From: Pseudodesulfovibrio sp.
GTDB lineage: Bacteria > Desulfobacterota > Desulfovibrionia > Desulfovibrionales > Desulfovibrionaceae
Reading direction: 5' to 3'
Length of the DNA stretch: 34,415 bases
Assembly: GCA_022712855.1 (NCBI GenBank)
Contig: JAFLJT010000193.1
Coordinates: 1-34,415 of the forward strand
Shown here: piece after piece, positions 4,301 to 31,721 of the stretch
How positions within the stretch are numbered: position 1 is the first letter of the stretch
How the letters are laid out: each line of letters starts with the position of its first letter
The notes under the pieces: generated by a model
Seen by the model: only the letters and a program-made list of their open reading frames with translations
The model's database searches: none
What the model was told of the DNA's origin: nothing
Position numbers and translations under genes: made by a program

Positions 4301-4429
4301 GGCAAATCGCCGAGAATTGCTCGATTACTGCGTTGCTGCGATAAAATCAGCCCCTTACGTATTTTCAATACGCTTCGGTCCTGCTTTTATCTTGCGCCTT
4401 GTACTCGAACCATTCTCGACAATTTGCTG
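4301..4429 (-). repeat. Long imperfect palindromic repeat, copy R2
   Basis: About 129 nt, in the same orientation as alaC. On the minus strand the outer arms CAGCAAATTGTCGAGAATG and CAATTCTCGGCGATTTGCC pair and differ in sequence from the other copies. The inner stem GATAAAAGCAG / CTGATTTTATC and apical CGTATT-GAA-AATACG are preserved as pairs. Conserved asymmetric segments CGAGTACAAGGCGC and GCAGCAACGCAGTAATCG are present. If the alaC promoter lies upstream of it, R2 would be in the alaC leader. Confidence 0.88.
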
Positions 4430-23676: not shown

Positions 23677-23686
23677 GCCGAACTAC

Positions 23687-23807
23687 GGCTGCAGATAAAG
23701 GCCCGATTGCGTCGTTGCTGCAACAAGTTCAAACCCTAACGTATAGGAAATACGCGTCGGTCTTGAACTTGTTTAGCGCCTAGCACCCGAACCTTTCTCC
23801 GCAGCCT
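23687..23807 (-). repeat. Long imperfect palindromic repeat, copy R4
   Basis: About 121 nt between convergent genes, 10 nt after the oxidoreductase stop. On the minus strand the outer arms GGCTGCGGAGAAAGG / CCTTTATCTGCAGCC pair; the inner stem AACAAGTTCAAG / TTTGAACTTGTT pairs with different bases from the other copies; the apical hairpin is CGTAT-TTCCT-ATACG. Conserved segments read CGGGTGCTAGGCGC and GCAGCAACGACGCAATCG. Confidence 0.9.
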
Positions 23808-23830
23808 TCCAGATTTAAGTTGTATTCAAC

Positions 23831-29383: not shown

Positions 29384-30763
29384 ATGGTTGAGAATAACGA
29401 AAAATCGGGTATCGACAAGACCACACGGGTATTCTTTTATCTGTGCGCGGCTTTCTGTGTGAGCTTCTTTGTCTGGGCTTCCATAGCTCCTCTCGACATT
29501 GTCAGTGACGCTGTTGGAGAGGTTATTCCCAGCTCGCGGGTTAAACGGATCCAGCATCTTGAGGGTGGTATCGTCCGTAAGATCAATGTCCGTGAGGGCG
29601 ATGTTGTTAAGGTCGGACAGCCTCTTATCGAGCTTGAGGCCACAGCCAGTGATTCTACTGTTGAGGAACTCAATGTCAGGGTGACCTCTCTTCAGACAGA
29701 ACTCATGCGCCTCGAAGCTGAATCCCGGTGGTTTGATGATCCTCAAGCTTCAACAAAAGAGGGCACGGAGAAAGTAGAAAGGCCCAAGGGAGAGCAGGTT
29801 CGAAAACTGCTTGTTAATCCGTTTAGTGTTGAACTCACTTTTCCCACAGAGCTTCAAGCTAAATCTCCTGAACTCGTTGCACAGGCACTTGAATTATATG
29901 ACGCCCGGCGCGAGCGGTTTGTTAACGATATTGGTGCACAACGGGAAAAAATCAATCAGCGCGAACAAGATATTAAAGAAATTAATGCGCGTGTCCGTAA
30001 TCAGCGGCAGAACCTTAAGTATGTCAGAGAGCAAATCTCCATCAGTGAGGAATTGCTCAAGGATAAGCTGACATCTCGATATAAGCACCTTGGATTCTTG
30101 AAAGAAGAATCCACGCTCGTCAGTAAGATTCAGGAAGATAAGGCAGCATTGGCACGTTCCAAATCAATGCTGGTGGCTGCTAAAGATAAATTTGATCAAA
30201 TTTCCAACACGTTCCACGAGGAAGTGCAGGATGAATTGCGCGAGTCAAGCCGTGAATTGCGCGAGTTCACCCAGCGTATGCGCAAGATGTCAGACAGCTT
30301 GCAACGCACTGTCATTCGTTCTCCAGCCAATGGTATTATCAAATCCTTTTATATCATGGGTGAAGGTGAAGTTGTTCAGCCAGGTATGACAGTGCTCGAT
30401 ATCGTTCCCGCTGGTGACAAGCTCATTATCGAGGCGCATCTGGCTTTGGGTGACATCGGGTATGTCCAGATCGGCCAACCGGCCACAGTGAAGCTTGCAA
30501 CGGGTGATGCCCGCATGTTCGGCAATCTTGATGGAATTGTGAAGAGTATTAGCCCAGATGCTATTACTAAGCCTGAAGAGGGGACCTATTACAAGGTCCT
30601 TGTCGAAACCGAACAGGATAGATTCGAGAAAGATGATTTACGTTACCAGCTCTACCCGGGAATGCGTGTCCTCGTCGGTATCAAAACTGGCGAACGAACT
30701 GTGATGGAGTATTTGATTTATCCCTACTTTGATACCCTGTATCATGGGATGCAAGAACGATAA
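29384..30763 (+). CDS. HlyD-family periplasmic adaptor of a type I secretion system
   Basis: 459 residues. A short cytoplasmic N-terminus, one membrane helix at ~15-38 (VFFYLCAAFCVSFFVWASIA), then the HlyD start region (SRVKRIQHLEGGIVRKINVREGDVVKVGQPL), the first half of the lipoyl domain. A long coiled coil (~70-300, rich in E, K, Q and R) is followed by the second lipoyl half (VIRSPANGIIKSFYIMGEGE) and beta-barrel domains (GDIGYVQIGQPATVKL). This is the canonical bridge between the inner-membrane ABC transporter and TolC. The ribosome site is weak; the 9-nt gap suggests translational coupling to the ABC gene. No RTX or large adhesin substrate is encoded nearby. Confidence 0.95.
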   Translation: MVENNEKSGIDKTTRVFFYLCAAFCVSFFVWASIAPLDIVSDAVGEVIPSSRVKRIQHLEGGIVRKINVREGDVVKVGQPLIELEATASDSTVEELNVRVTSLQTELMRLEAESRWFDDPQASTKEGTEKVERPKGEQVRKLLVNPFSVELTFPTELQAKSPELVAQALELYDARRERFVNDIGAQREKINQREQDIKEINARVRNQRQNLKYVREQISISEELLKDKLTSRYKHLGFLKEESTLVSKIQEDKAALARSKSMLVAAKDKFDQISNTFHEEVQDELRESSRELREFTQRMRKMSDSLQRTVIRSPANGIIKSFYIMGEGEVVQPGMTVLDIVPAGDKLIIEAHLALGDIGYVQIGQPATVKLATGDARMFGNLDGIVKSISPDAITKPEEGTYYKVLVETEQDRFEKDDLRYQLYPGMRVLVGIKTGERTVMEYLIYPYFDTLYHGMQER

Positions 30764-30784
30764 TTCTTTGAAATCGCAAAGAAT
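30763..30784 (+). repeat. Small perfect hairpin just after hlyD stop
   Basis: ATTCTTTG-AAATCG-CAAAGAAT, an 8-bp stem starting at the hlyD stop and directly abutting the left arm of the split terminator. It may protect the transcript end. Confidence 0.5.
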
Positions 30785-30979
30785 AAAGCCGGGCATGCCC
30801 GACTCAGATTGATGACAAATCTCAATCTGGCAGGCTGCTGAGAAAGGTTCGAGTGCAAGGCGCAAAAAAAGATCAGGGCCGAAGCGTACTTCCTGTACGT
30901 TAGGATCTGATCTTTTTGCAGCAACGCAGCAATCGGGCCTTTGTCAGCAGCCTGAGTCGGGCATGCCCGGCTTTTTTTG
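30785..30979 (+). terminator. Terminator of the secretion operon, split by repeat R5
   Basis: The left arm 30785-30812 (28 nt) pairs with 30822-30829 (8 nt) plus 30955-30974 (20 nt), the two parts separated by 30830-30954, which is R5. Joined, the parts are the exact reverse complement of the left arm. A T-run (30972-30978) follows. The distal part can also fold locally (AGTCGGG-CATG-CCCGGCT then T), so termination may survive the interruption. Confidence 0.85.
30831..30954 (+). repeat. Long imperfect palindromic repeat, copy R5, inserted in a terminator
   Basis: About 124 nt. Outer arms CAGGCTGCTGAGAAAGG / CCTTTGTCAGCAGCCTG, inner stem AAAAAGATCAG / CTGATCTTTTT, apical hairpin CGTAC-TTCCT-GTACG. 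Conserved asymmetric segments CGAGTGCAAGGCGC and GCAGCAACGCAGCAATCG. CTG occurs immediately on both sides of the insert (30827-30829 and 30952-30954), so the exact ends are uncertain by about 3 nt and a CTG target duplication is possible. Confidence 0.92.
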
Positions 30980-30998
30980 TGTCTTATGAATGGATTGA

Positions 30999-31721
30999 TT
31001 AAACGTTCTTGAGGACCATCATACAGCCGAGCAGGAAGACCAGAACAAGGGCCAGCTTTCGGTAACCATGATCTGAAATATGCTTGTATGCGAACGTACC
31101 AAGAAAGATACCTACAGCAAGTGCTGGGAGTGAGACAGTGAAGTAATTGATGACTTCACTGGTAATAAGGCCTGAATAAGCATGTGTGGCTACAATACTC
31201 AGTCCTGTAATCAAAAAATAGAAAGCAAGGGTGGCCTTGGTTTCATCTTTCGACCAAGGTTGCAGAGTGGAATATATGATGACAGGGGGGCCGCCTGCAC
31301 CTGTGGCGCCACCTAAAAGACCTGAAAGGAATCCGGCTGTAATAGTCGAAGGAAGACCGAGTTCTCGCAAGGCTGGCTTGGCTATGAACTGATACGCAGT
31401 GAAGCTAATCATGATAACGCCAAGTAGAATTGAGATTGAATGCGGGGATATATGCTTAAGAGCGAACACTCCAAGCGGGATGCCGGGGAGTGTCGCTATG
31501 GTGAGTATGACGATGTTTCGAACGCGAATCGAAGCTCTCAATTGGATGCTGAGAGTTATACAGACACCCATGGCGAGCATGACAACGAGAGGGATAACGG
31601 TTTTGATGGGCAGGATCAGTCCAAGCAGGGGGAGGGCGATAAGGCCGAACCCAAATCCGGTAAGACCTTGTAAAAAACCGGCGAGGACAACGATGGATGC
31701 AATAGCAATTGTTTCAAACAT
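30999..31721 (-). CDS. TauE/SafE family membrane permease
   Basis: 240 residues, almost wholly hydrophobic with seven or eight membrane helices in two halves. FLQGLTGFGFGLIALPLL in the first half and AGFLSGLLGGATGAGGPPVIIY in the second are the paired family motifs. The TauE/SafE (formerly DUF81) family moves small anions, including sulfite, sulfoacetate or other organosulfur compounds, across the inner membrane; the substrate here is unknown. In a sulfate reducer a sulfur oxyanion is plausible but not shown. No convincing ribosome site precedes the ATG. It converges with the secretion operon and is divergent from the ferredoxin gene. Confidence 0.88.
   Translation of the reverse strand: MFETIAIASIVVLAGFLQGLTGFGFGLIALPLLGLILPIKTVIPLVVMLAMGVCITLSIQLRASIRVRNIVILTIATLPGIPLGVFALKHISPHSISILLGVIMISFTAYQFIAKPALRELGLPSTITAGFLSGLLGGATGAGGPPVIIYSTLQPWSKDETKATLAFYFLITGLSIVATHAYSGLITSEVINYFTVSLPALAVGIFLGTFAYKHISDHGYRKLALVLVFLLGCMMVLKNV

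Follow-up and report, generated by a model that had tools for sequence, protein, structure and literature searches.

A 150-nt mobile element with the ends of IS1182-family IS lies between two copies of a short terminator-like hairpin in the 34,415-nt stretch of Pseudodesulfovibrio DNA analysed here (hereafter the window). We consider it very probable that this element is a MITE from a branch of the IS1182 family which, mobilised in trans, inserted at the stem-loop of a terminator and that the whole stem-loop was duplicated. The element abuts a hairpin at either end, the same arrangement recurs at other copies of the repeat and around autonomous IS of the same branch, and three related IS have empty sites that carry one hairpin.

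The insertion lies in the 235-nt gap between two convergent genes, an hlyD-like gene for a membrane fusion protein on its upstream side (29384-30763, + strand; Pfam HlyD_3, 1.4e-19) and a tauE/safE-like gene on the - strand (30999-31721; Pfam TauE, 8.7e-32); no listed open reading frame of at least 100 amino acids overlaps this gap. From left to right, the site consists of the left hairpin copy AAAGCCGGGCATGCCCGACT (30785-30804), of which the 18-nt duplicated core at 30787-30804 reads AGCCGGGCATGCCCGACT, the complete mobile unit (30805-30954, + strand), and the right hairpin copy AGTCGGGCATGCCCGGCT (30955-30972), followed by a T-run (30972-30978, + strand) that completes a terminator-like site after hlyD. 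The mobile unit has the ends CAGATTGATGACAAA and (reverse complement) CAGGCTGCTGACAAA. It comprises an outer left end, the mini-hairpin CAGATTG..CAATCTG (30805-30829, + strand), and an inner palindromic unit CAGGCTGCTGA...TCAGCAGCCTG (30831-30954, + strand), which is the repeat named R5 in a preliminary description of this DNA. Three other copies are found in the window, all on the - strand and all more diverged than that at 30805-30954: one at 1582-1705, a still more diverged one at 4307-4425, and one at 23677-23815 with a terminator-like hairpin at one side only.

The preliminary description had taken 30830-30954 to be precisely the repeat. The start of the element is placed at 30805 because other copies carry the same mini-hairpin directly before GCAGGCTG with other flanks; for example, one like CAGATTGATGACAAACCCCAATCTG precedes the GCAGGCTG end in L003 and L012, where the neighbours differ. 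The canonical outer end (allowing up to 4 mismatches in 15) is recognisable in 32/86 full-length copies. A 3-bp target duplication of CTG, also suggested earlier, is rejected: CAG...CTG are the element's own termini, the IS copies end likewise, and what the empty sites have once is the hairpin beyond these termini. The 125-nt stretch is indeed a dispersed repeat, with 47 listed matches in its own genome that correspond to about 40 places after subtraction of 5 opposite-strand palindrome self-matches and 2 split copies. Matches to the element were obtained in 43 of the 60 genomes searched (own genome included), and a BLAST search of plasmids with the 150-nt unit gave no match.

Small, multicopy and devoid of a transposase gene, the element has the character of a MITE, and its terminal repeats match those of IS1182-family IS. 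Its left end CAGATTGATGACAAA agrees at 13/15 positions with each end of the IS in the genus relative G030 and at 15/15 with one end of a Vibrio penaeicida IS, and its right end agrees at 14/15 with the G030 right end. Judged by its sequence, we take it to be a MITE, a non-autonomous transposon whose ends are those of an IS1182-family branch. REP/BIME or ERIC repeats, by comparison, are told by family-specific sequence or by association with a RAYT transposase. Several copies of the element occur in tandem or closely spaced arrays (G005 contigs C10, C24 and C48; G022:C1:1905476-1906046; L036, L039 and L094), and two copies (L028, at G000:C32:1232-1408, and G000:C85:8814-8990) each have an insert of about 50 bases, in both cases between element positions 55 and 57. 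A repeat family in G005 (L034, L099, L102 and L111) shares the element core and has different ends (GGAAGTGCTG...CAGTGCTTC) adjoined by CTAG-like letters.

To describe the flanks, 119 distinct repeat records were reduced to 86 full-length copies with both flanks. A strict hairpin duplication abutting both ends was found at 15/86 of these MITE copies, including 4 of the 27 in the own genome, whereas none of 3,391 mismatched pairs, in which the left flank of one copy was set against the right flank of another, reached the strict score. By outer end, the duplication is present in 12/32 canonical and 3/54 non-canonical copies. The best five duplications are identical at 23/23, 18/18, 25/26, 24/26 and 20/21 positions, and all fold as stem-loops. 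The MITE resembles the autonomous IS described below in the kind of target and in its duplication, but most of its copies (71/86) have no strict duplication. A looser local-alignment scan, which covered 84 copies by a slightly different cut, gave additional candidates against a noisier control: the scores of 498 mismatched flank pairs had a 95% level of 18, a 99% level of 26 and a maximum of 45, and the direct score of the window site is only 26.

The window flanks had originally been read as the arms of one long hairpin, into the middle of which the element dropped without duplication, so that its removal restores the hairpin. The pairing itself is confirmed by letter-for-letter comparison: joining 30822-30829 to 30955-30974 gives exactly the reverse complement of 30785-30812, and a chance origin of this pairing is unlikely, as had been stated, because other element copies also carry duplicated hairpins. 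The flanks match inverted over a perfect 20 bp (20/20, against 16/18 for the direct match of 30787-30804 with 30955-30972), forming a perfect 28-bp stem with 8 bp of the element, and in the local-alignment scan the inverted score exceeds the direct score (41 versus 26). This is the sole such case among the 15 strict duplications; the other 14 match better directly than inverted. Moreover, the eight additional pairs are the element's own end, that is, its mini-hairpin folding on itself. Each window flank is also an almost complete palindrome by itself, so inverted similarity between them is automatic, and the direction of a match is told by the loops and mismatches of the flanking hairpins. Since related-IS empty sites also have one hairpin, we reject the single split 28-bp hairpin as improbable. 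Most likely, the remaining 20 bp of the stem are two copies of one terminator hairpin. The part of the earlier claim that stands is that a mobile repeat inserted at the terminator stem-loop after hlyD.

The two window copies of the hairpin differ at positions 3 and 16, which are paired with each other in the stem, and both read AGTCGGGCATGCCCGGCT in outward-facing form, with a G-U pair in RNA. The better inverted match of this site would be explained by two independent substitutions in the stem, each accommodated by wobble pairing, or by a flip of one copy, and the original state of the site would have been a single 18-20 nt hairpin, duplicated whole. It should be noted that a single long hairpin would equally give the pattern of the window, and hence this site alone cannot decide.

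Autonomous relatives display the same habit. The genus relative G030 has three IS copies with an IS1182 transposase (NF033551, 457 bits) and the ends CAGATCGCTGACAAA / CAGACTGCTGACAAA; two of the three lie between exactly duplicated hairpins (31 and 25 nt), and the third (L135) has different hairpins on its two sides. Profile searches with PF13751 and NF033551 found no IS1182 transposase in the assembly to which the window belongs (87.7% complete), and partial NF033551 matches occur in seven other genus genomes, including G012. The 55 PF13751 matches in G012 mostly belong to another IS, and the copies fetched (L131 and others) have GAGACCTCTGC ends. A transposase-based search for related loci yielded one locus, used as L186. 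Outside the genus, hairpins are duplicated in an Erysipelotrichaceae MAG contig (23/23) and in G384 (31/31), and a simple scan was positive at 3/16 loci, G030 included. In the same simple scan, no hairpin duplication was found at IS1182 relatives with GGGCTGTTGC-type ends (L189, L190, L192 and L194; GGCCTGTTGC in L196), which group with L193 and L197 in the transposase tree (support 93/100).

On plasmids, hairpins are duplicated directly against the IS ends at 18 of the 21 loci fetched (L217-L227, L229, L237 and L239-L243), a non-random set hand-picked for taxonomic spread from 60 listed matches of 1,058 records. At L228 and L238 the left and right hairpins differ, and the ends of L230 were not resolved. 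The 22 tabulated duplicated IS hairpins range from 18 to 31 nt, and 21/22 begin with A and end with T. They are terminator-like in having at least four A in the 8 bases before the left copy (20/22) and at least four T in the 8 bases after the right copy (19/22), counts for which no control was drawn. A transposase tree was reconstructed from 36 of 38 loci (L223 and L243 were omitted for their short open frames), in which several of the non-duplicating rows are long branches. The label 'duplicates' requires 4 changes on this tree versus 12.2 in shuffles, and 0/500 shuffles were as low. The duplicators are clustered without forming one clade, and L228, L230 and L238 fall among them.

Three occupied/empty pairs have one hairpin before insertion and two after it, and therefore insertion duplicates the stem-loop. 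An E. coli IncC plasmid without the IS carries one AGGCCAGCAATAGCTGGCCT, and a Klebsiella IncC plasmid with the IS carries two within the same 60-nt outer flanks. Likewise, the hairpin that occurs on both sides of the IS in one strain of Salinivibrio kushneri is single, with one letter changed, in another strain, and ACAGCAATTAAATTGCTGT stands once in three Bacillus plasmids that lack the IS and twice in a B. subtilis plasmid that has it (B. subtilis/velezensis plasmids). Salinivibrio TGB4 (L232), with a rearrangement downstream of the gene, is uninformative as an empty site. These pairs bear on whether slippage or gene conversion produced the second hairpin after the insertion and independently of it. 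Hairpins are prone to slippage and one-sided copies exist, but hairpins abut both ends of elements in Alphaproteobacteria, Gammaproteobacteria, Bacillota and the phylum of the window, and the one-copy empty sites have matching flanks; we regard such a later origin as extremely improbable.

Within the genus, the gene before the G030 IS at L133 ends in a single terminator-like 3' hairpin in 3/5 relatives (L183-L185, with L184 and L185 identical at this gene end), and no hairpin so plain is present in L181 and L182. After the same gene, the G005 MITE copy L096 has duplicated hairpin flanks. The terminator of this gene has apparently been hit independently in two species, by the IS in L133 and by the MITE in L096, and perhaps also at G016:C5:58662-59410.

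For the window itself, no empty site was found by eye and folding at 11 other genus hlyD loci (L041-L051). The intact 28-bp hairpin that the preliminary description had expected of relatives was not seen downstream of hlyD at these 11 loci, nor was the split 28-bp arrangement that it had named as evidence against an insertion. A search for related loci with HlyD confirmed no relative. A tauE match adjoins hlyD in 5/11 loci (L042, L045, L047, L048 and L050), and L045 (G022) has a different simple terminator between the two genes. In L044 (G004), where tauE does not adjoin, a single hairpin directly after hlyD has nine letters, GCCGGGCAT, in common with the window hairpin; by sequence, it is possibly a homologous single terminator, or the likeness is due to chance.

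We propose the following sequence of events. The DDE transposase of the IS1182 branch, supplied in trans, would act on the MITE and attach both of its 3' ends to a short palindromic stem-loop, in most cases a terminator-like one, with one join in each strand and the two joins at opposite feet of the stem. Gap filling would then copy the whole stem-loop, and therefore the target site duplication would be the hairpin itself (18-31 nt for the tabulated autonomous IS). Mobilisation in trans is suggested by the ends and target habit that MITE and IS share. Between hlyD and tauE, the insertion would have left the element with a hairpin copy to its left and another to its right.

How the target is recognised is less certain. 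Because the length of the duplication follows the hairpin, recognition of an extruded cruciform, as opposed to the double-stranded palindrome, appears indicated, and we give slightly less than even credence to the reading that the IS1182 branch picks its target by DNA structure, such that joining at both feet of an extruded terminator cruciform copies the terminator. A rather unlikely alternative, which differs in the recognition step only, is that the transposase reads a double-stranded inverted repeat (an A...T palindrome) and cuts with an ordinary wide stagger. The A and T at the boundaries of 21/22 tabulated hairpins would fit such reading, as would the 5/86 MITE copies that have CTAG to the left and CTA to the right, a simple palindromic target. 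However, the duplications vary with the hairpin over 18-31 nt and are not constant, which suggests structure-dependent cut positions. CTA stands directly to the right of 13/86 copies, among them these five; copies with CTAG left and CTA(G) right (L033, L083, L088, L089 and L123) have ends of type CAGGCCGTTGAAAAA, and some CTAG-flanked copies lie directly 3' of the apparent stop codon of a neighbouring gene. From their flanking letters, the CTAG-flanked copies look like a second insertion habit with a 4-bp CTAG duplication.

A terminator scan of 30700-31050 detected two sites, one per strand and both facing outwards, where shuffled sequences averaged 0.4. The right hairpin and T-run form the + strand site on the hlyD side (30954-30973), in agreement with the earlier statement that a hairpin with a T-run can still form distally. 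The left hairpin is the - strand site (30805-30786), followed by TATTCTTTGC, a weaker T-rich tail, and could serve tauE. The 3' end of hlyD through the element has a predicted fold of -127.9 kcal/mol versus -66.2 in shuffles (z -13.7), in which the left and right hairpin arms pair together as the 28-bp stem noted previously. If both sites are used as terminators, hlyD transcripts would traverse the element and could end at the right copy and its T-run, and tauE transcripts could end at the left copy.

Known systems offer partial parallels. According to the sections consulted of PMC5678879 and PMC4923244, IS1272 and TnSha1, both of the IS1182 family, also target stem-loops, several of them terminators, as the window MITE does. 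In these accounts the stem-loop is wholly or partly deleted without target duplication (IS1272 removes it in PMC5678879, and PMC4923244 describes IS1272 / TnSha1 deletion at hairpins), whereas here it is duplicated. Replacement of the stem-loop in the manner of IS1272 does not apply to the present elements, which are flanked by two hairpins where the empty sites have one. A further likeness to IS1272 / TnSha1 may lie in two left-end-like units of the window MITE. With the IS1182 family as defined by NF033551 the element shares terminal repeats of type CAGRYTGNTGACAAA and target hairpin duplication (18/21 plasmid loci), and it differs in being 150 nt long and in lacking a transposase gene. MITEPye1 of Paracoccus yeei resembles the window MITE in its IS1182-type ends, intergenic location and predicted long stem-loop, but the portion of PMC11578231 available to us gives it direct repeats of 4 bp and a copy number of 1-3 per chromosome and does not describe hairpin duplication. 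Similarly, ISCaa15 of Amoebophilus asiaticus is an IS1182-family member for which the accessible part of PMC3196728 reports 4-bp direct repeats for 2 isoforms, and therefore not all IS1182 members appear to duplicate hairpins. The CTA/CTAG-flanked MITE copies resemble the 4-bp repeats of both, as far as these excerpts of PMC11578231 and PMC3196728 go.

Apart from a hypothetical cruciform-target pathway drawn in PMC5678879, no report of whole stem-loop duplication by IS1182 elements was found in the literature listings or in the portions consulted of PMC5678879, PMC4923244, PMC11578231, PMC3196728 and PMC7335449. An excerpt of PMC7335449 quotes direct repeats of 2-60 bp for the IS1182 family from ISFinder, and so specialists may know of single cases of hairpin duplication. 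A duplication that is as long as the hairpin would readily account for the spread of 2-60 bp in that excerpt (PMC7335449), and the deletion by IS1272 and the duplication described here can be seen as alternative results at one type of target.

Target duplications are commonly regarded as short and constant in length. The unit duplicated here is a complete terminator-like hairpin, and its length follows the stem. The occupied/empty plasmid pairs open the proposed mechanism to direct tests in laboratory strains. As a consequence for the neighbouring genes, an element inserted between them can leave an outward-facing terminator for each. If the branch does choose its targets by structure, converging genes would each receive their own terminator and insertions would be nearly harmless, which would explain the spread of the MITE between genes across the genus.
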